Shown piece after piece: positions 44,856 through 59,293 of a DNA stretch of 64,000 bases. The position numbers were made by a program, and so were the translations under genes. Below the pieces are notes generated by a model. That model saw only the letters and a list, made by a program, of their open reading frames with translations, made no database searches and had not been told where the DNA came from. This DNA is from an uncultured Hyphomicrobiales bacterium. GTDB lineage: Bacteria > Pseudomonadota > Alphaproteobacteria > Rhizobiales > Beijerinckiaceae. The DNA lies in the NCBI GenBank assembly GCA_903902915.1, contig CAIUWR010000045.1, forward strand, positions 62,001-126,000. The letters are read 5' to 3'. Each line of letters opens with the position of its first letter. Within the stretch, counting starts at the first letter, position 1.

Positions 44856-45599
44856 ATGAATCCAACCGTTATTTTGGTCGGTGCCGACAAGGGCGGCGTT
44901 GGCAAGACGACTGTTTCGCGCGTTCTGCTGGATCATCTTGGGGCTCTCAAGATCAGCGCGCGCGCCTTCGACACCGAATATCCCCGGGGAACCCTCAAGA
45001 GATTTCATCCGTCGGTGACCGAGATTGTGGACGTCACAAGTTCGTCCGACCAGATGAAGATCCTCGACACTTTGTCGAACGCGGGTCCATCGGTCTCGAT
45101 CATCGACGTCCGCGCGGGGCAGCTCAGCCTCACGTTGCGGATGCTGGAGGAAGTCGGCTTCCTGGACGCGGTCGTGGCCGGACAGTTCAACTTCCTCGTA
45201 TTCCATGTCATCGGACCTTCGATTTCGTCACTGGATGAAATCGCCGACATCGCGCCCTACGCCTCGGACGCCAATTACTTTCTGGTGAAGAACTTCATCA
45301 ACGACACAACCTTTTTCGAATGGGATCCGCGCACGTCGGCCGCCTATTTCAAAAAGATCAAACGTTTGGGCGACATCACGATCCCCAAATTGAACGAGAT
45401 GGCCTACGAGCAGGTGGAATTGGCGGGCGTGCCCTTCGCCTCCTTCGTGAACAACAAGAACGCCGCTGGCGGCAACGCGGATTTCTCTTTTGTCCTTCGC
45501 GGTTATGTACGCACATGGCTACGCAACATCGCTGCGGATTTCGACCGGGTCGGGTTGCTGAACGCCATGGGGGTGACGCTCTCGAAACGTTCCCGCTAG
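44856..45599 (+). CDS. ParA/MobD-like P-loop ATPase
   Basis: The product has 247 residues. It starts with VILVGADKGGVGKTTVSRVL, a deviant Walker A motif with both lysines (DKGGVGKT), as in ParA/MinD ATPases. FDTEYPRGTLKRFHP follows as a switch-like region, and SIIDVRAGQLSLTLR as a Walker B-like strand. The rest is unlike partition ParA proteins and more like ParA relatives such as MobD. No ParB or centromere sites are seen. It is followed, 119 bp on, by a second ParA-like gene on the same strand. Confidence 0.78.
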   Translation: MNPTVILVGADKGGVGKTTVSRVLLDHLGALKISARAFDTEYPRGTLKRFHPSVTEIVDVTSSSDQMKILDTLSNAGPSVSIIDVRAGQLSLTLRMLEEVGFLDAVVAGQFNFLVFHVIGPSISSLDEIADIAPYASDANYFLVKNFINDTTFFEWDPRTSAAYFKKIKRLGDITIPKLNEMAYEQVELAGVPFASFVNNKNAAGGNADFSFVLRGYVRTWLRNIAADFDRVGLLNAMGVTLSKRSR

Positions 45600-45717
45600 C
45601 CATACCCCACATGCAATCGACCATGGCTTTGCGCAACGATCAAAGCCATGATTTCCCTGTTGTCAGCGGCCCCTTCAGGAGCGGTCGGTTGAGCGTTGTC
45701 GCCTCGGGAGCATTGCC

Positions 45718-46428
45718 GTGAGACCGGGACACAATGTTTTTATCGTCTGCGCGCCGCACCCGCGCGCCGGCGTGACGACCACGGCGATCCTGTTGACGGA
45801 ATATCTGACCTGGCGCGGTCTGCAGCCCGAGGGCTTCGACACGGACCCCTACGAGAGCGCTTTCGCGAACCGGTTTGCCGGACAGGCCCGGGTAACGGAC
45901 ATTTCGACGACGCAGGGCCAGATTTCGCTCTTTGATCAGCTTCTTGTTTGCGATGGACGGCCGAAGGTCGTCGATGTCTGGAATCGCTCGTTTCAGAAGT
46001 TTTACACGATCCTGCAAGAGACCGGCTTTGTTGAGGAAGCGAAACGCCTGTCCATCGACGTCGTCATTCTTTACTGCGCCGACGAGTTGCCCGCGAGCCT
46101 GGTGACGGCGCGACAGATATCGCAACTTTGGCCGGACGCGCCGATGATCGCCGCCGTGAATGAGGGCGCAGCCGAATTTCAGGGGGACGTCCATCGCCTC
46201 ATGGCCGACTTTCCAACACGGCTGAATTTACATATTCGCGAACTCGATGCTCAGGTATCTCGAACGATAAACAAAGAGACCTTTTCCTATACTGATTTTC
46301 TGAACGATCCGCCCTTCGACATGTCGATCCTCGCCAGGTCTGCGCTGCGCAAATGGCTTGTGCATATTTTTAAACAATTTCAATATCTTGAACAGAACGG
46401 CGTGATAAACGGAACTGACTTGCGATGA
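45718..46428 (+). CDS. ParA-like protein with a degenerate Walker A
   Basis: The product has 236 residues. Its N-terminus HNVFIVCAPHPRAGVTTTAI lines up with a deviant Walker A, but both lysines are replaced (PHPRAGVTT instead of DKGGVGKTT). FDTDPYESAFANRF matches the DTEYPRG region of its neighbour, and VVDVWNRSFQKFY the Walker B strand. It is therefore a probable ATPase-dead partner or a divergent P-loop family. The start is GTG with GGGAG about 7 bases upstream. Pairing with the intact ATPase upstream suggests a heteromeric system; its task is unknown. Confidence 0.72.
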   Translation: MRPGHNVFIVCAPHPRAGVTTTAILLTEYLTWRGLQPEGFDTDPYESAFANRFAGQARVTDISTTQGQISLFDQLLVCDGRPKVVDVWNRSFQKFYTILQETGFVEEAKRLSIDVVILYCADELPASLVTARQISQLWPDAPMIAAVNEGAAEFQGDVHRLMADFPTRLNLHIRELDAQVSRTINKETFSYTDFLNDPPFDMSILARSALRKWLVHIFKQFQYLEQNGVINGTDLR

Positions 46429-47584: not shown

Positions 47585-47601
47585 TGAAGCCGCCGCCTTC
47601 A
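47585..47601 (+). terminator. Terminator after the solute-binding protein gene
   Basis: TGAAG-CCGCCGC-CTTCA is followed by six T residues. The arm overlaps the stop codon of the convergent acyltransferase gene. Confidence 0.55.
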
Positions 47602-48648
47602 TTTTTTGAGCGTGGTTCTCGCAAAGCCCAGATTCATTCGCTGGAGCGGCCTTTCTATATATTGATACACAAGAAGGCTTGCGCCGCAGGCGGTTGCTGT
47701 CGCCGCGCCAACGAGCAATAAAGCCGTCATGTCGCCAGGCTTGAGGACATTGAATATTTTTATTGCAAACTCGGTCACGAAAATATGCGTGAGATAAAGC
47801 GAGTAACTCGCGGCCCCCAGCAGCAAGGCCAATTTCGACGTGATGCGCCAATTCCATTTTTCCAGCGCGATGGCGGTCCCCACGACCAATAAAGCGGGTG
47901 ATCCGGAAAGGAACGCTCGGGCGACATCCCGCCAAAACACAGGGATGAAAATGACAAGGAACACCCCGAGGCTTGCAAGCGCCAGGACCGCGCATTTGAC
48001 CGCATGGGAAACATCGCGGGGAATCCGATCATGAATGATCGCCAAACCCATGCCGAAACAAAATTCAAACATGATCGGGTCCGTGTAGAATTTGGCCAAG
48101 GGTGAATTTAGGTCAAAGATCCAGCCTGCGGCGATCAACGCGGTTATGCTCAGCATCGTGAATTGAAGGCCAAGCCGCCTTGGCAGCAGCAAGCCAGTCG
48201 CGAATATGAGGTAGAAGAGCATTTCATAATTGAGTGTCCAGCCCAGAAAAAGGACCGGCCCGGCCAGCGCGCCATCTCTGGTGAATGAGATGAAGAAGAG
48301 CGACTGGAGGAGTTCCGTCCAGGATGTGTGGACGCTCTTCATCAACCCGGTCGTCATGAGAGCCAGGCAGAAAAAAAATAATGTGATCAGCCAGTACAAG
48401 GGCACGATTCGTCGGATGCGGTTCTTGAAGAACGCCGCGCCGCTGATGGAATCCGCGTTATTCGTATAAGCCATCAGGAACCCGCTTATGACGAAAAAAA
48501 CATCGACGCCGCCGCCGCCAAATTGCGGAACGCCCAGCGGCTCATAGATGGGGCCGAGATGAAACAGCACCACGAGCAAGGCCGAAAAGCCCCGCAGGAA
48601 CTGGATGTTCTGGATAGCGCCCCGATTAGCGTCGGACATCGGCATCAT
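47599..48648 (-). CDS. Acyltransferase-3 (OafA-type) membrane protein
   Basis: The product has 349 residues and about ten transmembrane segments. Family signatures include FLRGFSALLVVLFHLGPIYE near the N-terminus and GGVDVFFVISGFLMAYTN, then FFKNRIRRIVPLYWLITLFF. These proteins transfer acetyl or succinyl groups to surface polysaccharides. It lies just before the exopolysaccharide operon, but divergent from it, so it may acylate that product. Several start codons (48648, 48645, 48639) are in frame; GGGAA upstream suits either of the first two. Confidence 0.9.
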   Translation of the reverse strand: MMPMSDANRGAIQNIQFLRGFSALLVVLFHLGPIYEPLGVPQFGGGGVDVFFVISGFLMAYTNNADSISGAAFFKNRIRRIVPLYWLITLFFFCLALMTTGLMKSVHTSWTELLQSLFFISFTRDGALAGPVLFLGWTLNYEMLFYLIFATGLLLPRRLGLQFTMLSITALIAAGWIFDLNSPLAKFYTDPIMFEFCFGMGLAIIHDRIPRDVSHAVKCAVLALASLGVFLVIFIPVFWRDVARAFLSGSPALLVVGTAIALEKWNWRITSKLALLLGAASYSLYLTHIFVTEFAIKIFNVLKPGDMTALLLVGAATATACGASLLVYQYIERPLQRMNLGFARTTLKK

Positions 48649-49226: not shown

Positions 49227-49895
49227 ATGCAAAGTGAAATTGCAAACGATTGCCTTGTCGGCCATGCGGCCGTTCGACGAACGCCGCTCGGCGCTGTCGC
49301 CAAACGGACCACGGACGTCATCCTCGTGATTTTAGGCCTGCTGGTTTTATGGCCCCTTTTCCTCCTGATCGCGACCCTCGTCGCCACTGACGGCGGCCCT
49401 GTCCTTTACCGTCATCGCAGGATCGGAATGGATGGCGCGCCGTTTGATTGCCTGAAATTTCGCACGATGATCCTGGGCGCGGGGGAGTGCCTTGACGAAT
49501 ATCTGGCCTATCATCCCGCCGAGCGGGAGGAATGGGAGAGCGCGCGCAAGCTGACCTTCGATCCACGCACCACTGCGGTGGGACGCCTGCTTCGCCGGAC
49601 CAGCCTTGATGAGCTCCCGCAGCTTTTCAACGTGCTTGCCGGCGACATGAGCCTTGTCGGGCCGCGCCCGGTCACGAGCCCTGAACTCACTTACTATGGC
49701 GACAGCGCCGGGCTTTATCGTGCGGTGCGCCCCGGCATTACGGGACTGTGGCAGATCAGCGGCCGCAACGACTTGTCCTATGAGCAGCGTGTGGATCTGG
49801 ATGCACGTTACGTCAAGGAGCAGGGCTTCTGGCGCGACATCGGCATTTTGCTGAAAACCCCGCAGGTCGTCCTGTCCCGGACCGGCGCCCGATGA
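49227..49895 (+). CDS. Undecaprenyl-phosphate sugar transferase (ExoY/WbaP family)
   Basis: The product has 222 residues with one N-terminal transmembrane helix (VILVILGLLVLWPLFLLIAT) and the bacterial sugar transferase domain: GPVLYRHRRIGMDGAPFDCL, KFRTM, RRTSLDELPQLFNVLAGDMS and LVGPRP, ending in GITGLWQISGRNDLSYEQRV. It loads the first sugar phosphate onto undecaprenyl phosphate at the inner membrane, starting repeat-unit assembly. It is the short, catalytic-only form, like ExoY. It is the first gene of a tightly overlapping operon that runs to 59293. Confidence 0.93.
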   Translation: MQSEIANDCLVGHAAVRRTPLGAVAKRTTDVILVILGLLVLWPLFLLIATLVATDGGPVLYRHRRIGMDGAPFDCLKFRTMILGAGECLDEYLAYHPAEREEWESARKLTFDPRTTAVGRLLRRTSLDELPQLFNVLAGDMSLVGPRPVTSPELTYYGDSAGLYRAVRPGITGLWQISGRNDLSYEQRVDLDARYVKEQGFWRDIGILLKTPQVVLSRTGAR

Positions 49896-50746
49896 GCCCG
49901 CAAAATCCCCCGGCGACAAAGTCCGCAGCGCCCACGGTAAGCGCGCTCATGTCGACTTACGCCGCAGAGAAGGCGTCCAATCTGGCGCAGTCGCTGGAAA
50001 GCGTTTTCGCTCAGACACGCCCACCAGAGCAGCTCGTTCTGGTCGTCGACGGGCCGATTCCGCCAGCCCAGGACTTCGTGATCAAAAGCTTTTATGGCGA
50101 CCCGCGCGTGGCTGACTTCACGGTGCTTCATCTGCCCGATCAAGGCGGGCTCGCCGCCGCCATGAACGCTGGGCTGAAGGCCTGCGTCGGAACTTATGTC
50201 ATGCGGATGGACTCCGACGACATCTGCACGCCGGACCGGCTCGAACTCCAGATGCGCTATGCGCTGGCCAACCTGAACGTGGATATCGTCTCCTCCTGGA
50301 GCGAGGAATTTTTCGACGATGGACACGCTCCGCAGATCAAGGTGTCGCCGGTCGCTCACGAACACATCACAACCGCCCTGCGCTGGCGCAACGTCCTCGT
50401 GCACCCGACGATTCTGGTGAAATCCAGCGCCTTGCGCGAGGTCGGCGGCTACCGCAGCGAATTTGGCCAGCTCGAGGATTATGACCTGTTCGTGCGCCTC
50501 GCCGTGAAAGGGTTTCGCTTCCATGTCATCCCGAAAACCCTTGTCCGCGTTCGCTCCAGCATCGAGCAACGCAGCCGCCGCGGCGGCTGGCGCTATGGCC
50601 TGAAAGAAATGGCCTTCCGTTGGGAATGCAAGCGGGCGGGCTTCCTTCGCCTGCACCAATTCGCCGCCACCGCCGGTCTCTACCTGCTCTTCCGGCTCAC
50701 ATCTGGCGCCATGCGCAAGCGTTTGTACGCCATGGCAAGGTCTTGA
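49892..50746 (+). CDS. Glycosyltransferase family 2
   Basis: The product has 284 residues. The GT-A fold appears as VSALMSTYAAEKASNLAQSL, then PEQLVLVVDGPIPPAQ, and the acidic motif MRMDSDDICTPDRLELQ near residue 107-115 that binds the nucleotide sugar and metal. It lacks a transmembrane region until a hydrophobic C-terminus. It extends the lipid-linked repeat unit. The ATG overlaps the stop of the sugar transferase gene (ATGA). Confidence 0.9.
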   Translation: MSPQNPPATKSAAPTVSALMSTYAAEKASNLAQSLESVFAQTRPPEQLVLVVDGPIPPAQDFVIKSFYGDPRVADFTVLHLPDQGGLAAAMNAGLKACVGTYVMRMDSDDICTPDRLELQMRYALANLNVDIVSSWSEEFFDDGHAPQIKVSPVAHEHITTALRWRNVLVHPTILVKSSALREVGGYRSEFGQLEDYDLFVRLAVKGFRFHVIPKTLVRVRSSIEQRSRRGGWRYGLKEMAFRWECKRAGFLRLHQFAATAGLYLLFRLTSGAMRKRLYAMARS

Positions 50747-50751
50747 AAGAA

Positions 50752-52158
50752 ATGCTCGTGACCGATCCAGCCAAATTGTCTTCCGTCCAAGCCGCATCTT
50801 TTCGGACGCCGTCTGGCGCCGACGAAACACGCGCTTATGTCGCCTCCGCAGGGCGTGAACGCGTCTTGCGCTTTCTCATTGGTTTTGGTGCGGTAGTGGC
50901 GACAGCGCTGCTGGTCTGGCCTCTGCTGCCCCGGCGTTATGAAGCCTCGTCTTCCGTGATTTTGCATGCGTCCGAACAGGACGAGGCGCAGACGGGCCTC
51001 AAGCAAGGCATTCTGGACGACGGCGCCATTCAGTCGGAAATGGATCGCATGTCGTCGCCCGTGATCGTCGATCTGGCCATGGCCCGTATCGGGCTTGGCG
51101 CAGACCCAGAGTTCGCCGGCGCAGGCCTCGTCTCGCTCGTTCTCTCCCATGTGGTCCCGGGCTGGCGACCATCCGCAGTGGACCTCGCCAAATTGCGCGA
51201 CACATTGCGTGACCGCATTTCCGTCGTCCGCGAGCGTCGCTCCTACACCTTGAAAGTAGCGGTCTGGGACCGCGACGCGGACCGCGCCGCCGCCATCGCC
51301 AATGCGCTGGTCGAGGTCTACATTCAGGACCAGATCAGCCGCAAGCGGGAGGCTATCGAAGCCCAGAGCCTGCGCCTCGAACGGCGCGTCGCCTCGCTGC
51401 GGGGCAGCCATCAGAGCGCGCAGGAGGCCGTGCGCGCCTTCATGTCGCAAACCGGCATCAGCGACCATGGCGACGGATCCGAACTGCAAAGCGAGCTGAC
51501 CACGCTGAGCGGCGAACTGGCGCAATCACGCGCAAGGGCCATCGAGGCCCGGGTTCGTTTCGAGGGGCTTTCGCGCATGCAGCGCTCAGGCGCCTTGCTC
51601 AATGCGCCCGAGGTCGTGTCCTCGCCCTCCGTGCAAAGGGCGCGCGACATGTATGCGACCGCAAGGGCCAAGCCCGCCAGTCTCGCCGCCGAGACCAATG
51701 GTCTGCAAGCGCAGGTGGAGGAAGAAGCGCAGCGCGTGGTCTATGCCGCCGAACAGGACGCCGCAGGCTGGCGCGCGCGCGAGGACATGTTGCGCGACGA
51801 AGTCGCCAGCGTGCGCAGCGAAATGGTGCGTCGGCGCCTCGACGAATTGCGTCTCGACGAATTGCGCCGGGAGGCGACCTCGGACGAAACGGCGCTGACT
51901 GACGCCCTGACCAAACTGAAGGGTCAGCTTGGCCGCACACAGGCCATCCAGCCCGACGCCGATCTCGTGGCCCGCGCCGAACGCCCGCGCGCCGCCGCCT
52001 TCCCCAACTTCGTCCTGGCCGCGCTGGGAACCCTGTTGCTGGCTGGCCTCGCCGGAGTCCTCGCCGCCGCGCGGCCGGGCGCCCTCGAACGGGCGGTCCA
52101 ATCGGTCCGCCAGTGGGCCGAGTTCTTGCGGGGACCGAAGCCTGGAGCCTCCGCATGA
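50752..52158 (+). CDS. Wzz/GumC-like chain-length determinant without kinase domain
   Basis: The product has 468 residues. One transmembrane helix lies near 38-62 (FLIGFGAVVATALLVWPLLP) and a second near 423-445 (FVLAALGTLLLAGLAGVLAA), with a large periplasmic, mainly coiled-coil region between. The Wzz motif YEASSSVILHASEQDEAQTG follows the first helix. No C-terminal tyrosine-kinase domain is present, so it is a polysaccharide co-polymerase without its BY-kinase part. A 15-bp tandem duplication (51838-51867) encodes LDELR twice. The ribosome site is weak (GAAAGAA). Confidence 0.85.
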   Translation: MLVTDPAKLSSVQAASFRTPSGADETRAYVASAGRERVLRFLIGFGAVVATALLVWPLLPRRYEASSSVILHASEQDEAQTGLKQGILDDGAIQSEMDRMSSPVIVDLAMARIGLGADPEFAGAGLVSLVLSHVVPGWRPSAVDLAKLRDTLRDRISVVRERRSYTLKVAVWDRDADRAAAIANALVEVYIQDQISRKREAIEAQSLRLERRVASLRGSHQSAQEAVRAFMSQTGISDHGDGSELQSELTTLSGELAQSRARAIEARVRFEGLSRMQRSGALLNAPEVVSSPSVQRARDMYATARAKPASLAAETNGLQAQVEEEAQRVVYAAEQDAAGWRAREDMLRDEVASVRSEMVRRRLDELRLDELRREATSDETALTDALTKLKGQLGRTQAIQPDADLVARAERPRAAAFPNFVLAALGTLLLAGLAGVLAAARPGALERAVQSVRQWAEFLRGPKPGASA

Positions 52159-53387
52159 CCGAAGTCTCTCTCCTCACCTCTCCCCTCGCCGCGCCGCAGG
52201 CTTCGGCCACCGCGCAGGCGGCGCCGTTGCGGGTGCTGTTCTGGCACTGGGGCCGAGGCGGCGCCGGATCGAAGTTCACCTTCGAACTGGTGCGCGCGGT
52301 CGCGTCCAGCGGGGCGGCCCAGCCCTTTGTTTCGGCGGTGAAGAACTGCGAATTGGCGGGGCTAATCCAGGGCTTGCCTCTGGCGGCGCCGGTCTGCGAA
52401 ATCGAGACCTTCTCCGGCGCCAAGGACACGCTGGCCGGAAAGCTGGCCGCGGCGCGCGGGCTCGCCGGCCTGCTGCGGATTGGCCGCCAGTTCGAGGCCT
52501 TCATCAAGGACAACCAGATCGACGTGGTGGTTTGCACCATGCTGTCGATCTGGGACATCGCCGTCCTGTCGGCGCTGCGGCGCCTGCGGACGCCCTTCGT
52601 GCTTGTGCTGCACGACGCCAATCCGCACCCCGGAGACAGCTACCCGTTTCGACGTCTCGCCATGAGGCGCGAAATTGCGGCGGCCAACGGCGTTGTGGTC
52701 TTGACGGATCATATCCGCCAGCAAGCCATCCAATGCCATGGCTTGGCCAATGACCGGATCTGGACCATCCCGCACGGATCGTTCGACTTCGGCGTGAGCG
52801 GCCTGCGGAGCCTGCCGCAGGACCGTCCGCCACGCCTGCTCTTCTTCGGGCGCATCCTCGCCTACAAGGGGCTGAGCCTGCTGCTGGACGCCTACCGCCT
52901 GCTCCGGGAGGATGGCCTGCGCGTCGAGCTGGACATCATGGGCTCCGGCGACATCAGCCCCTATGCAGCGAAACTGGCCCGTCTGGACGGCGTCCGCCTC
53001 ACCAACCGCTGGATGGACGATGCGGAGATCGGCCCCGCGCTCGCCAATACCGATATCATGGTGCTGCCTTATATCGAGGCGAGCCAGTCGGGGGTCGCGG
53101 CGGCGGCGGCCTCCTGCGGAATGCCGACTGTGGCGACCCCGGTCGGCGGTCTGGCGGAGCAGGTCCGACACGAGGAAACGGGACTGATCGCCGCGCAGAC
53201 GACTGCGTCCGGCCTCGCTCACGCGATCCGCCGTCTCCTCGAGGATCCCGCCCTCTATGAAAGGTGCTCGGCTGGCGCTTTGGCCCATGCGCGGGAGGAT
53301 CTCGGCTGGGACAGCATCGCCAGCCGAATGGTGGAGGCGGCCAGAGACGTCGTCCTTCGCCACACAAGCCTGAAGGAGACGGCTTGA
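52155..53387 (+). CDS. Glycosyltransferase family 4
   Basis: The product has 410 residues with GT-B architecture. The N-terminal domain includes HWGRGGAGSKFTFELVRAVA and the C-terminal domain contains PPRLLFFGRILAYKGLSLLL, then EASQSGVAAAAASCGMPTVA and TPVGGLAEQV, the donor-binding glutamate region. It probably adds an internal sugar of the repeat unit. ATGA overlap with the gene upstream and TGATG overlap with the gene downstream show tight coupling. Confidence 0.9.
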   Translation: MTEVSLLTSPLAAPQASATAQAAPLRVLFWHWGRGGAGSKFTFELVRAVASSGAAQPFVSAVKNCELAGLIQGLPLAAPVCEIETFSGAKDTLAGKLAAARGLAGLLRIGRQFEAFIKDNQIDVVVCTMLSIWDIAVLSALRRLRTPFVLVLHDANPHPGDSYPFRRLAMRREIAAANGVVVLTDHIRQQAIQCHGLANDRIWTIPHGSFDFGVSGLRSLPQDRPPRLLFFGRILAYKGLSLLLDAYRLLREDGLRVELDIMGSGDISPYAAKLARLDGVRLTNRWMDDAEIGPALANTDIMVLPYIEASQSGVAAAAASCGMPTVATPVGGLAEQVRHEETGLIAAQTTASGLAHAIRRLLEDPALYERCSAGALAHAREDLGWDSIASRMVEAARDVVLRHTSLKETA

Positions 53388-55495
53388 TGGCGGCGCAGGA
53401 CCAGCTTGAGCGGCAGGCGCCGCTGCGCCACCCCGCTGTCGCCTGGATGGAGAATCCGGTGGCTTTCAGCGCGCTCGTGCCTGTGCTCACCCTCGCTGGC
53501 GCCGGGACGACCCTGCTTGCGCCCATGCTGCTCGACCCGGTCGCCTTCGGCGCTTTCGCCCTGCTCTCCATCCTGTTCCAATATACGGCGGCGGCCGACC
53601 TTGGCCTGTCCCAGCTGGCGGATCGCCTCGCCGCGCGCCGCACCGACAATGCGGCTGCGATCTTGCGCGCGCGCTGGCGCATGTCCCTGCTGATCGCGGG
53701 CGTCGGCGCCCCCGCCGCCGCCGGATTCGCGTGGTGGTCGGGATCCCTGCCCGTGGTCGCGACCGGGCTTGCGATCCTCGCCGGCGCCGCGTTCATGGCC
53801 GCCAATGGCCCGGTCTCCATTCATCGGGCGGCCGCGCGCATCGGCCGCTTCACGCTCGCGGCTCTGGTCCTCCAGTTCGGCATGACCCTGCCGCGTCTGG
53901 CCGGGCTGAGCCTTGGCGGCGTCACCGGCTGTTTCGCCGCGCTTGCGCTCTGGTATGTCGGCGTGGCGCTGCTGCTCGCCCGGCCGCCGCGCGGACCGAC
54001 GGCCAGCGTCGGCTCCTTGCTGGGGGAATCCCTGCCGCTTTTCGCCTTTTACGGCGCATGGCTGCTGTTCATTTCGGCGAACCGCTGGATCTCCTGGTTC
54101 GTGTCGCGCACGGAAACTGATTTCGGCCTCTTCGCCTTCGGCGCAGGTTTTCTATTGGTGGGGGTCGGCGTCGTTTCCAACATCAGCCAGGTCCGCTATC
54201 CCCGCATTGTCGCGCAAGTGGCCGTTTCGCCAGAAGCGGGCGCCCGGCTGTTGGCGGGCGACCTCACGCGCCTCGCCTTGGCCACCGCGCTCTGCGTCGC
54301 CGCGGCGATACCCTTGGCCGACCATGTCGTCGGCCGCCTGTTCCCGCGCTATGTGGCCGCGACGCCGTCGGCGCTGGCGCTGGCGACCTCGGCCATCCCC
54401 CTCGCCATGGTCGCCTGGAGCCTGCCGGTGTCGATCAGCCTGTCACGTCATCCCTGGCGCGACGCGCTGGCGGTTTTCGCCCTGCCGCTTGCGCTGCTGG
54501 GTCCGGCCATGTGGCTTGGCGAGAGGTTCGATGGACTGCGCGGACAGGCCTGGGCCTGCGCTTTTGTGAGCGCCCTGCTCGCTGGCCTCCAACTCGACCG
54601 GCTGCGCCGCGCGGGCGCGCTGACCCTGCCTGGCGCGGGTCGTTGCCTGACGCTCATGGGCGGCCTTTCGCTCGCGCTGTGGGCCACGATTTCGGTCGCC
54701 ACGGCGAACGAGCGCACGCCCTATCAAAAGCCGCCAGCCAGCGCCCTGGCGTTCGAGGACTCCTTCAGCGATCTGCGCCTATGGAACGGCAAATCGGGCG
54801 TCTGGCAGCCCAGCCTCCCTTGGGGCGGACGCACCATCCCGACCAACCGCGAGCGTCAATTCTATGTGGACGCGCGCATCGACCCACCCAGCATCGCCCG
54901 CCTCGCGCCATTTTCGCTGGATAGCGGACTGGTCATCACGGCCCGTCCAATCCCCGCCGACGCCCGCGCGCTGACCGCAGGCCTGTCCTACGCCTCCGGC
55001 TTGCTGACCACCGCCCGCTCATTCTCCCAAACCTATGGCTATTTCGAAATCCGCGCGAAGGTCCCGAGGGGCCGCGGCCTCTGGCCGGCTTTCTGGCTGG
55101 CGCCGGCTGACCGTTCATGGCCGCCGGAAATAGACGTCATGGAAGCCCACGGACATCTGGTCGACGGCTATTGGGCGACCATTCATTGGCGCGAAGCAGG
55201 CGGAGCCCCGCAAGAACAGGGGTTCAGGATCAGCACGCCGGACCTGAGCGAGGATTTTCACGACTACGGCGTGGAATGGGGCCCCGAGCTCATTCTGTGG
55301 ACCTTCGACGGCGAAGTGGTGGCGCGCGCGCAAACCCCGCAGTCCATGCGCAAGCCCATGTACATGCTCGTGAACCTCGCCGTCGGCGGCAAATGGCCGG
55401 GCGACCCGGACAGCACGACCACCTTTCCCGCCACCTTTCATGTGCAACGCGTTCAGGCCTACCGGCTGGACGCCACCACGGAGACTTCGCGATGA
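53387..55495 (+). CDS. Flippase-like membrane domain fused to a GH16 glycanase
   Basis: The product has 702 residues. Residues 1-440 form about 12 transmembrane helices of the polysaccharide-transporter (Wzx/MVF-like) type; typical is SALVPVLTLAGAGTTLLAPM, then LLDPVAFGAFALLSILFQYT. After a final helix (about 415-437) comes a GH16 domain (about 455-695): AFEDSFSDLRLWNGKSGVWQ, YGYFEIRAKVPRGRGLWPAF, the catalytic PEIDVMEAHG (ExDxxE, about 581-586) and MYMLVNLAVGGKW. Wzx proteins flip lipid-linked repeat units across the inner membrane; GH16 enzymes cut or transglycosylate beta-glucans and galactans. As placed, the glycanase should face the periplasm. The frame is continuous with no stop, so this is a true single-gene fusion in this sequence. 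The start ATG overlaps the upstream stop. Confidence 0.85.
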   Translation: MAAQDQLERQAPLRHPAVAWMENPVAFSALVPVLTLAGAGTTLLAPMLLDPVAFGAFALLSILFQYTAAADLGLSQLADRLAARRTDNAAAILRARWRMSLLIAGVGAPAAAGFAWWSGSLPVVATGLAILAGAAFMAANGPVSIHRAAARIGRFTLAALVLQFGMTLPRLAGLSLGGVTGCFAALALWYVGVALLLARPPRGPTASVGSLLGESLPLFAFYGAWLLFISANRWISWFVSRTETDFGLFAFGAGFLLVGVGVVSNISQVRYPRIVAQVAVSPEAGARLLAGDLTRLALATALCVAAAIPLADHVVGRLFPRYVAATPSALALATSAIPLAMVAWSLPVSISLSRHPWRDALAVFALPLALLGPAMWLGERFDGLRGQAWACAFVSALLAGLQLDRLRRAGALTLPGAGRCLTLMGGLSLALWATISVATANERTPYQKPPASALAFEDSFSDLRLWNGKSGVWQPSLPWGGRTIPTNRERQFYVDARIDPPSIARLAPFSLDSGLVITARPIPADARALTAGLSYASGLLTTARSFSQTYGYFEIRAKVPRGRGLWPAFWLAPADRSWPPEIDVMEAHGHLVDGYWATIHWREAGGAPQEQGFRISTPDLSEDFHDYGVEWGPELILWTFDGEVVARAQTPQSMRKPMYMLVNLAVGGKWPGDPDSTTTFPATFHVQRVQAYRLDATTETSR

Positions 55496-56712
55496 TCTCT
55501 CGCCCCATGCGCGGCCTGCGCCTTGCGGTTTTATGCGCCGCCTTGTCCTCGTCCTGGTCGGCCTGGGCGGCGAACACGGCCTACAAGCTCGATACCGGCG
55601 ACATCGTGGAAATCGACATTTTCGGCATGCCCGACTTCAAGCGCCGCGTCACCGTGGACATCGACGGCGAGGTGGCGATCCCCTTCGTTGGCGGCCTGCA
55701 CGCCTCCGGGCTTTCGCTGGCCGAGCTGCGGTCTTCCATCGGTGCGGGCCTCGTTGGCGTCGGCGCCATGCAAAGTCCGCAGGTGACCGTGGAGATCGCC
55801 GAACATCGGCCATTCTATATCAGCGGAGACGTGTCGCGCCCCGGCGCCATCGCCTATCGCAAGGGCCTGACGGTGCGCCATGCCATCGCTCTGTCCGGCG
55901 GCTTCGACGCGCTCCGCTTTCGCTCTGAAAATCCGCTGATGGCGGCGCCGGAATTGCGCAGCAAGAACCAGGCCCTGCTGCTGGACCTCGCGCGGGCCGA
56001 AGCCCGCATCGCGAGCGTGCAGGCCGAGATCGACAATCGCGCCGATTTCCAGATCGCGCCCTCCACGGTCCAGCAAGCCGCCTCACCCAAAGTGTTGGAG
56101 GAAATCGCCAAAGCGGAGCGCCAGTCCCTCGCCGCCCGCCTTCAGGAGTGGAGCAAACAATTTGAATTCCAGCGCCTCAAGGTGGAGCAGGCGCGCGAAC
56201 AGGTCGCCGCGTTGAGCGGCAGTCTGGAACAGCAAAGCGAGGCGGCGAAATATCAGAAAGCGGCCTTGGAGCGCACGACGGCGAATGTCCTGAAGGGGGT
56301 GACCGCCATCAATCGCGGCGATGAGGAGCGCCGCAGTCTGGCGCAGATGAAGGCTACAGAAACGGACACGCGGTCGCGGCTCGCCAGCGCCAACACAGAC
56401 CTCGCGAGCGCCGTGCGCGAACTGGAGCGGATGACCAGCGACAGGGCGGCCGGCCTGCAAAAGGCCTATGAATCCGTCTCGGTCGAGCGTGAGAAAATCA
56501 AGTTCGACCTGCGCGCATCGGCGGAAAAACTTCTCTACGCCGGGGCGCTCAAAGCGCAGATCGGACGCGCCGCCGCGCCCGACATCGTGATCCACAGGGT
56601 TGTCGATGGTGAGAAAACGTCCTTTGCCGCCGATCAGGATAGCGAAATCCTTCCCGGCGATCTCATCGAAGTCATGATCGACCCATTGGCGGCGGCCGCC
56701 GCCGCCCGATAG
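55492..56712 (+). CDS. Polysaccharide export protein (Wza/ExoF-like)
   Basis: The product has 406 residues with a signal peptide ending near SAWA. A Poly_export domain (about 30-110) contains YKLDTGDIVEIDIFGMPDFK and DGEVAIPFVGGLHASGLSLA. An SLBB-type segment follows (FYISGDVSRPGAIAYRKGLT). A coiled-coil region covers about 165-350, and the C-terminus resembles a second SLBB (SEILPGDLIEVMID). This ExoF-like layout, with a coiled-coil insert and no lipobox, forms the periplasmic/outer-membrane export channel. ATGA overlap with the fusion gene upstream. Confidence 0.88.
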   Translation: MISRPMRGLRLAVLCAALSSSWSAWAANTAYKLDTGDIVEIDIFGMPDFKRRVTVDIDGEVAIPFVGGLHASGLSLAELRSSIGAGLVGVGAMQSPQVTVEIAEHRPFYISGDVSRPGAIAYRKGLTVRHAIALSGGFDALRFRSENPLMAAPELRSKNQALLLDLARAEARIASVQAEIDNRADFQIAPSTVQQAASPKVLEEIAKAERQSLAARLQEWSKQFEFQRLKVEQAREQVAALSGSLEQQSEAAKYQKAALERTTANVLKGVTAINRGDEERRSLAQMKATETDTRSRLASANTDLASAVRELERMTSDRAAGLQKAYESVSVEREKIKFDLRASAEKLLYAGALKAQIGRAAAPDIVIHRVVDGEKTSFAADQDSEILPGDLIEVMIDPLAAAAAAR

Positions 56713-56738: not shown

Positions 56739-58124
56739 ATGACGACCGCCGAGCCGCTCGCACAGACGCCGCAAAGCCTGACGTCGCCCATCGCCCTTTC
56801 GGCGCTGATCGCGCTCGTCTGGTTGGCAGTCCTGTCGGCTGTCGGCCCTGCCGGTTATCTTGCGCCCTTCGCTCTGCTGATCGCCGCAGGGGGCGTCTGG
56901 ATCGTCGCTTGCGCTGCGCGCGGAAAGTCCTGGGCGCTGGCGGGCATGCTGGGTTTCGCGATGGTGGTTCCCAACATCTACTTCCAGCGACAAGAGCTTC
57001 ACGAGACCGTCAGCTTCAACGCGCAGAACGGTCTGAAGCTTGTGCTCTGGGCTGCGATGGGCTTGGTCGGGCTCGCCCGCCTGCCGCGATTTTGGCCGCT
57101 CTTGAACGACCGCGCGCTCATGGCCGTCGGCCTGTTCGCGCTCATCGCCATAGCCTCGGCGCTGTGGTCGCCCGTGCCCGTTTATTCGGCCATTGGCGCC
57201 ATGGGATTCCTCGCCGCCCTGCTGTTCGCCTGCGCGGTGGCGACGGAGCTTTCCGAAGGCGTGGTCTATCGCACCATCGTCATCTCCTTCGTGATTTACC
57301 TGGCGTTGAACATCGCGGCGGCCTTCGCCTTGCCCGACATCGCCTGGCTCGCGTCCTATGGCGAAAGCGACTCCCAGCGGCTCCAGGGCATATCGAGCCA
57401 TCCCAACATTCTGGGCAAGGAAATAGCCTCGTTCATCTGCCTCTTCCTGCCGCTCGCCCTCGCCTATGGAAAACGGCGGACCGCCCTTGCGCTCGTCTCG
57501 CTGGGCTTTGGCGTCATTCTCGCGACCCAGAGCCGGACCTCGCTCGGGGCGCTTGCAATAGCTCTCGTCCTGCCCTTCCTGATCCGCCCGCAGGTGGCGC
57601 GGCCCCTCGGGTGGGCGCTCGTAGCGGTGATCGGCGCGGCGTCGTTGGCCATCGCGATCGGCTTCGTGCCCGACTTGCGGCCTCTGCTGGACGGCGCCAG
57701 CCGATCCAGCGACGCCAGCGAGATTCTCACCCTGACCGGTCGGACGGAATTATGGGGTTTTGTCTGGGACAAGATCCTCGAAGCGCCAGTTCTCGGCCAC
57801 GGCTTTGGCGCCGCCGACGCCGTCCTGAGCCCACAATGGTGGGGCGCGCCGGACGCCAGCGTCGGCGCCCACAACACCTGGCTGCAATCCCTGCTCATCG
57901 TTGGCGTGGTTGGAACGATTCCCTTCGTCTGCTTCCACGTGGAACTGATCCGGCGATGCTTCACCGACAGGCGCTCGCTCACCCGCATGCTTGCGAGCTA
58001 TCTGATCATCCTGGGCTTCACGGAAGTGGAAATTGCGGCCCATCCCGTCATGCTGACGCTCACAACATTCCTGATCGTCGCCCTCGACGCTCAACGCAAC
58101 CGGAAGGCGGCCGAACGCTCATGA
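56739..58124 (+). CDS. O-antigen ligase/polymerase-like protein (Wzy-like)
   Basis: The product has 461 residues and about 12 transmembrane helices. The Wzy_C-type region includes SSHPNILGKEIASFICLFLP, QSRTSLGALAIALVLPFLI, TGRTELWGFVWDKILEAPVL and GHGFGAADAVL, then HNTWLQSLLIVGVVGTIPFV. Such proteins join repeat units on the periplasmic side of the membrane. Together with the flippase half, the co-polymerase and the export protein, it completes a Wzx/Wzy-dependent pathway. Confidence 0.88.
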   Translation: MTTAEPLAQTPQSLTSPIALSALIALVWLAVLSAVGPAGYLAPFALLIAAGGVWIVACAARGKSWALAGMLGFAMVVPNIYFQRQELHETVSFNAQNGLKLVLWAAMGLVGLARLPRFWPLLNDRALMAVGLFALIAIASALWSPVPVYSAIGAMGFLAALLFACAVATELSEGVVYRTIVISFVIYLALNIAAAFALPDIAWLASYGESDSQRLQGISSHPNILGKEIASFICLFLPLALAYGKRRTALALVSLGFGVILATQSRTSLGALAIALVLPFLIRPQVARPLGWALVAVIGAASLAIAIGFVPDLRPLLDGASRSSDASEILTLTGRTELWGFVWDKILEAPVLGHGFGAADAVLSPQWWGAPDASVGAHNTWLQSLLIVGVVGTIPFVCFHVELIRRCFTDRRSLTRMLASYLIILGFTEVEIAAHPVMLTLTTFLIVALDAQRNRKAAERS

Positions 58125-59293
58125 GCCAGCTTCTTCATCGCGCCGCCAGCACAGCCAGGATCGCAGCGATCAGATCCAGCCTGAGCCTGCTCGGCTTGCG
58201 GGGCGTTCGCCAACTGGCGCGCGGTTCCATGGATCATGTCGGCATGATCCTGATGTTTCATCATGTGGCGCCGCCACGCAGCGGGAGATTGTCGATCAAT
58301 CGGGGATTAGAGGTCACGCCCGAAACGCTGGATCGGGTCGTGTCCAGCCTGATGGCGCAGGATTACGACATCGTCCCGATGGACGCTGTGCCCGAGCGCC
58401 TGGCGCAAGCATCTGCGGGGAGACGGCGCTTCGCCGCCCTGACGTTCGACGACGGCTGTCGCGACACGCTCCTCCATGCCGCGCCCGTGCTCGTGCGTCA
58501 CGGCGTCCCCTTCACCATCTATGTCACCACCGGCTTCGCTTCAGGCCATGTCGCGCCGTGGTGGCATGTGGTGGAGCGGGCGGCGCTCGCCGCCACGTCC
58601 CTCACGGTCGAGACCAACGCCGGACGCCAATGGTTCGACACCGCGAGCCCGTTTAAAAAAAAGCGAGCCGCAGAGGCTCTGCAAGGCATCTTGTGGCGCG
58701 CCTGCGAACCGATGCGCGCGCAGCAGACTGCGGCGCTGGCGGCGCAGGCGGGGCTTGATCTGCACGCTCTCACCCGTGAATTATACATGGACTGGCGGGA
58801 ACTGGTCGAAATCGCCGCGCTGCCGGGCTGCGCCATTGGCGCGCATACGGAAAGCCACGCCAGGCTCGCGGACCTCGACGAAGCGGCCGTCATGCAGGAG
58901 ATAGGCGAACCGCGTGACGTCATTCGCAAGCGTCTGGGGATCGAAGCCAGGCATTTCTCCTATCCCTATGGCGTCGCCGGAGCCTGCGAACAGCGCGAAT
59001 TCACGCTGGCGCGAACGGCGGGCTTCGCCACTGCCGTCACCACACGCAGGGGCGTTTTGACCCAGACCGACATTGCCGGATTGACCAGTCTTCCGCGCGT
59101 GCCGATCAACGGGCACTACCAGCGGCAAGCCATGATCGACGCACTTGTATGCGGCCTGCCGATGGTTCTGGCGGCGCAAACGAGAGCCCTGCTGGGCGCC
59201 ATGCGGGACGGCGCGCGCCACCAAAGGACTCTTCAGACGGACCGTGCGGCGATTTCAAGCCGAAGGCAATTCCATTCGCCCGAACGTTTGTAA
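58121..59293 (+). CDS. Polysaccharide deacetylase (NodB-like)
   Basis: The product has 390 residues. The NodB fold has LTFDDGCRDT with the catalytic and metal Asp residues near 106-110, GAHTESHARLADLDEA with the HxxxH metal histidines near 243, and FSYPYG near 278. The N-terminal 40 residues are amphipathic and may associate with the membrane; no clear signal peptide. It would remove acetyl groups from the exopolysaccharide or from its lipid-linked precursor. ATGA overlap with the Wzy-like gene. The last 61 bases overlap the convergent RsbW-like gene. Confidence 0.87.
   Translation: MSQLLHRAASTARIAAIRSSLSLLGLRGVRQLARGSMDHVGMILMFHHVAPPRSGRLSINRGLEVTPETLDRVVSSLMAQDYDIVPMDAVPERLAQASAGRRRFAALTFDDGCRDTLLHAAPVLVRHGVPFTIYVTTGFASGHVAPWWHVVERAALAATSLTVETNAGRQWFDTASPFKKKRAAEALQGILWRACEPMRAQQTAALAAQAGLDLHALTRELYMDWRELVEIAALPGCAIGAHTESHARLADLDEAAVMQEIGEPRDVIRKRLGIEARHFSYPYGVAGACEQREFTLARTAGFATAVTTRRGVLTQTDIAGLTSLPRVPINGHYQRQAMIDALVCGLPMVLAAQTRALLGAMRDGARHQRTLQTDRAAISSRRQFHSPERL

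Follow-up and report, generated by a model that had tools for sequence, protein, structure and literature searches.

What might a bacterium gain by building a polysaccharide flippase and a GH16 glycanase into one and the same protein? The question is raised by a gene in a 64,000-nucleotide stretch of DNA from an uncultured Hyphomicrobiales bacterium of the family Beijerinckiaceae (GenBank assembly GCA_903902915.1, contig CAIUWR010000045.1, positions 62,001 to 126,000; hereafter, the window), in which an N-terminal half with the fold of a Wzx flippase is continued, in a single frame, by a GH16 domain. We refer to the predicted product as Wzx-GH16. The reading that we favour, to which we assign a probability of roughly 0.55, is that it acts as an inner-membrane-tethered periplasmic endoglycanase that would cut the growing polymer made by the Wzx/Wzy pathway to which it belongs.

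The frame runs through 702 residues without a stop on translation, as a previous sequence-only reading of the window had stated, and the same architecture is present in other genomes. We gathered 19 distinct Wzx-GH16 fusions, one of which (locus L033) ends at a contig edge; records of Methylocapsa aurea, Microvirga alba and Microvirga terricola are among them, and the frames in the sampled genomes are free of internal stops. At full length the frame is intact in at least 11 of 199 sampled genomes of the window's family, the window's own included, and in at least two of 121 genomes of another family of the order, that of genome G508 (these and the other genome counts are lower bounds, since each search scored just the leading candidates of an initial screen). 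Because the frame is intact across independent genomes, a frameshift or chimera is excluded; such an error, or a fault of assembly, had been named beforehand as grounds for giving up the fusion, was looked for and was found nowhere, so that the probability of an artefact is negligible in view of the 19 distinct sequences. The genome of the window holds no second copy of the gene, which is also its sole match to PF00722 (one at E ≤ 0.01).

The GH16 half is readily recognized. PF00722 covers residues 535–678 (E 4.1e-23, 82.2 bits against a cut-off of 22), and the solved relatives closest in sequence are laminarinases and beta-glucanases, the best of them being 3azx (E 2.1e-29). In the full-length AlphaFold2 model this part adopts a beta-jelly-roll fold that matches the laminarinase 3azx (Foldseek E 6.9e-14, TMt 0.74), with laminarinases and beta-glucanases again at the top. 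The ExDxxE form of the catalytic motif is typical of these enzymes, and its residues E581, D583 and E586 are conserved in 19 of 19 fusions; the earlier claim of a full GH16 domain with the motif EIDVME is thus supported by family, fold and catalytic residues alike. On these matches the GH16 part would be a laminarinase-like endoglycanase, presumably hydrolytic and with the operon's own polymer as its putative substrate. With regard to named glycanases, the ExoK model (NF052392) gives the window protein 18 bits against an equivalog cut-off of 350, and the best NCBIfam match of the GH16 part, the EglC model (NF052454), gives 239.1 bits against a cut-off of 700 over model positions 219–459, that is, only the C-terminal half of the model.

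The N-terminal half, by contrast, is identified by its fold. Neither Pfam nor NCBIfam contains a model that matches it at E ≤ 1, PF01943 included (the cut-off of that family, 28.2, is exceeded by a homologue at locus L040 with 32.1 bits), and a flippase profile compared with the sequences of solved structures found no relative (best E 0.23), whereas the fold search found some. Folded alone by AlphaFold2 from an alignment of 10 sequences (predicted local distance difference test, pLDDT, 88.1; predicted template-modelling score, pTM, 0.87), its best alignment is with the lipid III flippase WzxE (PDB 9g9n), over 381 residues (Z 29.3, root-mean-square deviation 3.1, model positions 24–414). WzxE is also the top match by Foldseek (E 1.5e-5), and all 23 Foldseek matches at E ≤ 0.001 are WzxE, MurJ or MATE proteins. 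Residues R147, R170, R233 and D71 are invariant in the 19 fusions. On the model, the N-terminal part is a Wzx/MOP-superfamily flippase by fold with 12 core helices, and translocation of a lipid-linked repeat unit would be its presumed activity. The two proteins also differ: identity with WzxE is 13%, the alignment ends before a thirteenth helix, and the fusion adds this helix and the GH16 domain; the role in a Wzx/Wzy pathway is suggested here by the genomic context. Several MurJ structures align up to residue 442 and thus cover helix 13.

This additional helix bears directly on the location of the enzyme. The sequence-only reading had proposed about 12 helices of the Wzx/MVF type, of which the type of fold has held and the number has not, since the model contains 13 (in our reading, which splits two long stretches of the full model, residues 152–197 and 356–408, into two spans each); the extra helix would bring the C-terminus outside. 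Counted over 14 fused sequences, with loop limits that we set from the model, lysine and arginine residues sum on average to 19.1 over the seven inner loops and 3.1 over the six outer loops (per-loop means of 1.8 to 3.5 and 0.07 to 1.0, respectively), with 3.3 in the loop preceding helix 13 and 1.4 in the tail that follows it. This charge pattern predicts a periplasmic location for the GH16 part, as had been proposed; a cytoplasmic placement, regarded from the outset as fatal to the idea, was not found and is disfavoured, at the level of prediction, by both the charges and the helix count. The pTM of the full-length model is modest (0.65, with a pLDDT of 83.6 from an alignment of 13 sequences), and the relative placing of the flippase and GH16 parts is therefore not predicted. 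Between the hydrophobic core of helix 13 and the first phenylalanine of GH16 the linker measures 19–40 residues across the fusions.

The gene is embedded in an operon with the order sugar-phosphate transferase, GT2, Wzz, GT4, Wzx-GH16, Wza, Wzy and deacetylase (Table 1). Its ATG shares one base with the TGA stop of the GT4 gene (TGATG), and its own stop is overlapped by the ATG of the Wza gene (ATGA). With Wzz, Wza and Wzy identified, the initial description of a Wzx/Wzy-type operon with a co-polymerase and an export protein proved right. Around 16 other fused loci (L033 and L129 left out), blastp with the window's proteins at E ≤ 1e-4 detected Wzz and Wzy in all 16, the sugar-phosphate transferase and GT2 in 14 each, the deacetylase in 13, GT4 in 10 and Wza in seven, counts that are lower bounds because several loci end at contig edges or at the limits of the fetched stretch. 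The deacetylase, recurrent near fused loci, may be a sign that the polymer contains an N-acetylated sugar. At two loci of the window's sister clade, GT2 and Wzz occupy one open frame (L034:2211-4712 and L122:11488-13977), which indicates that gene mergers recur in this operon.

Table 1. Features of the Wzx-GH16 gene and its operon (window positions).
Feature	Position	Strand	Basis
Wzx-GH16 fusion gene, 702 aa	53387..55495	+	Open frame; full-length relatives
12-helix MOP/Wzx-type flippase core (by fold), ~residues 24-408	53456..54610	+	AlphaFold2 models; WzxE is best match
Thirteenth transmembrane helix, ~residues 414-440, predicted to lead to the periplasm	54626..54706	+	Model helix; K/R-rich loop before it
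Candidate signal peptidase I site A-T-A, residues 438-440, where helix 13 ends	54698..54706	+	Motif
GH16 domain, ~residues 454-695	54746..55471	+	PF00722; laminarinase folds
ExDxxE catalytic motif EIDVME, residues 581-586	55127..55144	+	E, D, E kept in fusions
Initiating sugar-phosphate transferase, catalytic domain only	49227..49895	+	PF02397 1.6e-58; WbaP-like 298.1 bits, below cut-off 403
GT2 glycosyltransferase, overlapping preceding gene	49892..50746	+	PF00535 4e-19
Wzz/EpsF-type co-polymerase (start chosen by us)	50752..52158	+	TIGR03017 4.8e-18, 65 bits, below cut-off 423
GT4 glycosyltransferase	52155..53387	+	PF13692 8.3e-26
Wza-type export protein	55492..56712	+	PF02563 9.6e-18, SLBB
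Wzy/O-antigen ligase-type polymerase	56739..58124	+	PF04932 4.9e-17
Polysaccharide deacetylase, CE4-type	58121..59293	+	PF01522 4.2e-16

In the mechanism that we propose, the flippase part would flip lipid-linked repeat units of the exopolysaccharide that the operon itself makes, and Wzy and Wzz would join the flipped units, while the GH16 part, following helix 13, would sit at the inner membrane on its periplasmic side, near the assembly site. There it could cut beta-linkages of the nascent chain before its exit through Wza, and the cutting may lower or set chain length, or clear stalled polymer; the proximity of flippase and GH16 would then presumably matter. The sequence-only reading, whose interpretation is supported in part, had suggested that tethering may allow chains to be trimmed, released or transglycosylated as they emerge. 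Because the fusion is conserved in related bacteria and holds the enzyme on the outer-facing tail of a flippase in an exopolysaccharide operon, it suggests that some bacteria trim their exopolysaccharide at the assembly site. A bolder version, which we consider doubtful, is a one-protein "flip-and-cut" module in which the endoglycanase on the flippase, presumably next to Wzy, couples repeat-unit supply to chain cleavage; if true, this would control chain length by a means other than Wzz or glycanases that are free or secreted. The length control of Wzx/Wzy exopolysaccharides, as well as the reason why several clusters hold a glycanase, are poorly understood, and a conserved covalent link would point to the flippase as the partner and to the inner membrane as the place.

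A number of observations weigh against tethered cutting of the nascent chain. That the polymer contains a beta-linkage cleavable by GH16 is an assumption; the fusion is patchy, with matches in none of the nine other listed genomes of the window's genus; and the charge pattern of the window protein itself is less clean than the family mean (19 lysines and arginines in inner loops, six in outer loops and two in the tail). In Methylobacterium oryzihabitans the two halves are separate genes of one cluster, so that the covalent linkage is not indispensable and the tether can be dispensed with there. A signal peptidase-like site past helix 13 could free the GH16 part. Lastly, the pathway may be able to do without this flippase: the window's genome holds a second, separate PF01943 flippase (G000:C40:121110-121862, locus L146), which makes redundancy possible, and in the promonan cluster of Sphingomonas sp. 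LM7, deleting the Wzx gene prmI had no effect (PMC11340318).

The history of the fusion helps to place these points. The sequences fit one origin. For the GH16 tree, 149 frames were reduced to 79 rows by dropping duplicates, matches under 185 positions and all but the 60 best of the unfused rows; the 19 fused rows and a single unfused one, from M. oryzihabitans, form one branch there (99/100). In the flippase tree (27 rows, 26 of them different, from 49 frames, with matches under 330 positions and duplicates dropped) the fused rows and the flippase of the same organism do likewise (97/98), against six outgroup rows. Locus L039, a contig-cut piece, was not counted as unfused. The flippase gene of M. 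oryzihabitans (L041; the same flippase frame is found at L128 of genome G108) ends about 20 residues past helix 13, and its GH16 is encoded downstream, beyond the Wza and Wzy genes, and begins with what in our reading resembles a twin-arginine signal peptide; the opposite end of the cluster carries a further GH16 gene, one with GGxGxD repeats. In both trees the split row falls inside the fused rows (97/94 in the GH16 tree), and a constraint keeping the fused rows together is rejected for the flippase by the approximately unbiased (AU) test (p 0.027) and not rejected for GH16 (p 0.456), the groups having been chosen after the trees had been seen. The arrangement of M. oryzihabitans is thus probably, not certainly, a later split of the fusion, and it offers a ready natural comparison of linked and unlinked halves.

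As for how the fusion came about, each of the six outgroup flippases that lack the fusion (five belong to a single genus, the sixth to another family) ends 2–4 residues from a helix that aligns with helix 13, and no GH16 match is found in the 16–19 kb around two of them (L117 and L118). Given that helix 13 is the last element of these outgroups as well, the fusion event probably placed GH16 on a periplasmic tail that was there before; most simply, the ancestor was a 13-helix flippase whose C-terminus faced outward and which acquired the enzyme at that point. The alternative that helix 13 is the leftover signal peptide of an ancestral GH16 is disfavoured by the same six proteins. Flippase and GH16 parts are both under purifying selection: against three near relatives the ratio of non-synonymous to synonymous substitution rates (dN/dS) is 0.13–0.17 for the flippase, 0.09–0.20 for GH16 and 0.28–0.52 for helix 13 with the linker, at high dS (0.6–1.5) and, for the last of these values, over 41 codons. 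Flippase and GH16 distances correlate across the 19 fusions with r 0.91 (0 of 2000 permutations as high), which is what would be expected of a single inherited unit.

How much the covalent link itself contributes is where the readings diverge. Neighbouring genes of an overlapping operon could simply have merged, leaving a GH16 that acts like any periplasmic ExoK-like enzyme and a tether that brings hardly more than equal dosage and export at no extra cost. The M. oryzihabitans cluster, where GH16 has a twin-arginine-like start of its own, is in line with such an incidental link, as are the GT2-Wzz merger in L034 and L122 and the fast evolution of the linker; on the other hand, the fusion has persisted through deep divergence (mean flippase distance of 0.56 over the 19 fusions) with only one split seen, and we consider the incidental link a possible explanation, short of an even chance. 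Less probable, in our view, is that the product is a polyprotein, cut by signal peptidase I past helix 13 so that GH16 is set free in the periplasm and the flippase keeps its 13 helices. FbcH of Bradyrhizobium, reportedly cut by signal peptidase, would be a precedent; a search of the open-access literature for one returned none. An A-x-A motif does follow helix 13 in the window protein and its near relatives (ATA-N, ASA-D, AMA-Q, AVA-E and ARA-E, with L034 deviating by ART-E), as it does in L129 and L119 (ARA-E and ARA-Q). Over the whole family, however, the strict motif is present in 12 of 19 fusions, which is not above the count at other outgoing helices of the same proteins, used as controls (9 of 18 at one, and 10, 5, 1, 6 and 12 of 19 at the others), and the seven fusions that lack it include L125, L126 and L038, with linkers of 40 residues; a looser motif occurs in 18 of 19 fusions and in 12 to 19 of the 18–19 control sequences, and is hence uninformative. 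The probable flippase origin of helix 13, present as it is in unfused outgroups, also speaks against a polyprotein. Release by signal peptidase is disfavoured as a general rule and is retained as a rival explanation.

The remaining alternatives concern what the enzyme does. GH16 is a retaining family that includes transglycosylases, and a membrane-held enzyme could transfer a chain from its lipid carrier to an acceptor, so that the GH16 part might move or join chains instead of hydrolysing them; with laminarinases and beta-glucanases as its closest solved relatives, and with a form of the catalytic motif typical of them, we think this rather improbable. The laminarinase-like fold would also suit the degradation of external beta-glucans as food or in defence, with no connection to the polymer of the operon. 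Such a role is hard to reconcile with a GH16 that shares one chain and one line of descent with an exopolysaccharide flippase in an overlapping Wzx/Wzy operon, and with a predicted inner-membrane location that an external polymer would hardly reach, and we give it very little credence. Cutting of the operon's own nascent polymer remains the reading that we prefer.

Several elements of this reading have precedents in known systems. ExoK and ExsH reportedly act on nascent succinoglycan chains, to go by the title of a 1998 paper by York and Walker. Low-molecular-weight succinoglycan of Sinorhizobium meliloti depends on ExoK and ExsH, none being detected in their absence (PMC4916376); like the GH16 part as we read it, they are glycanases of an exopolysaccharide pathway, but they are separate proteins. 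The promonan cluster comes closer in content, with a Wzx (PrmI) and a GH16 (PrmQ) within one Wzx/Wzy exopolysaccharide cluster, but the two derive from separate genes on opposite strands; deletion of prmQ leads to rugose colonies, and the role predicted for PrmQ by the authors of that work is to hydrolyse promonan while it is being secreted (PMC11340318). AlgL, the alginate lyase of Pseudomonas aeruginosa, is likewise a polymer-degrading enzyme in the periplasm of a polymer exporter; it is a lyase and is described by its authors as a free periplasmic protein, not fused to a transporter (PMC5099689). Both domains and their joint work in one pathway are already known, and cutting of the pathway's own polymer has already been proposed for the separate ExoK/ExsH and PrmQ. 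Among the matches listed in the open-access literature, which leaves out most subscription journals, we found no description of a Wzx-GH16 fusion and no known fusion family with an assigned role, in agreement with the initial remark that no described enzyme with this domain order was known; as far as these searches show, the conserved covalent link, the 13-helix anatomy and its history are undescribed.

Carriers of the fusion include Methylocapsa aurea, Beijerinckia sp. L45, Microvirga alba, M. terricola and M. flavescens, together with metagenome-assembled Beijerinckiaceae and Hyphomicrobiales. Searched with the flippase profile, an order-wide sample of 397 genomes yielded four (the window's, G029, fused and of the same family, G108, split, and G508, fused and of the other family), and a class-wide sample of 385 yielded three, namely the window's and two unfused relatives. 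Of 72,556 plasmid records 281 match and none covers 80% of the protein; plasmid exsH genes align at about 42% identity over about 40% of the query, at the GH16 end only. Among 110 loci found by similarity to the fusion protein (24 of 104 relatives were not kept, and unrelated fusions elsewhere are possible), no multi-helix-GH16 chain occurs outside the Wzx-GH16 family, GH16 frames there having at most one helix before GH16 by a crude hydropathy rule that gave 9–11 helices in the fusions.

A few features of the neighbourhood deserve mention. The sugar-phosphate transferase has 222 residues and matches positions 256–456 of the 456-position WbaP model, so that the model's N-terminal region is missing. 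The co-polymerase has no Pfam match at E ≤ 0.01, and no tyrosine-kinase family matched among the operon genes scanned. The deacetylase is weakly similar to the HfsH and PgaB models, under their cut-offs. No counterpart of an acyltransferase gene at 47599-48648 on the minus strand was found near any of the 16 other fused loci. Upstream of the operon, at 44856-46428, are two successive genes, the first with a KGGVGKTT P-loop and sub-cut-off Pfam matches only (LacI, CbiA and ParA) and the second with none. Finally, a second, separate GH16 gene with GGxGxD repeats (one to three matches each) stands beside the operon at four loci of Microvirga-type relatives (L040:9693-11234, L044:7642-9177, L121:11199-12719 and L107:7411-8910); these genes are ExsH-like, their products are perhaps secreted, and they recall the glycanase pair of S. 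meliloti.

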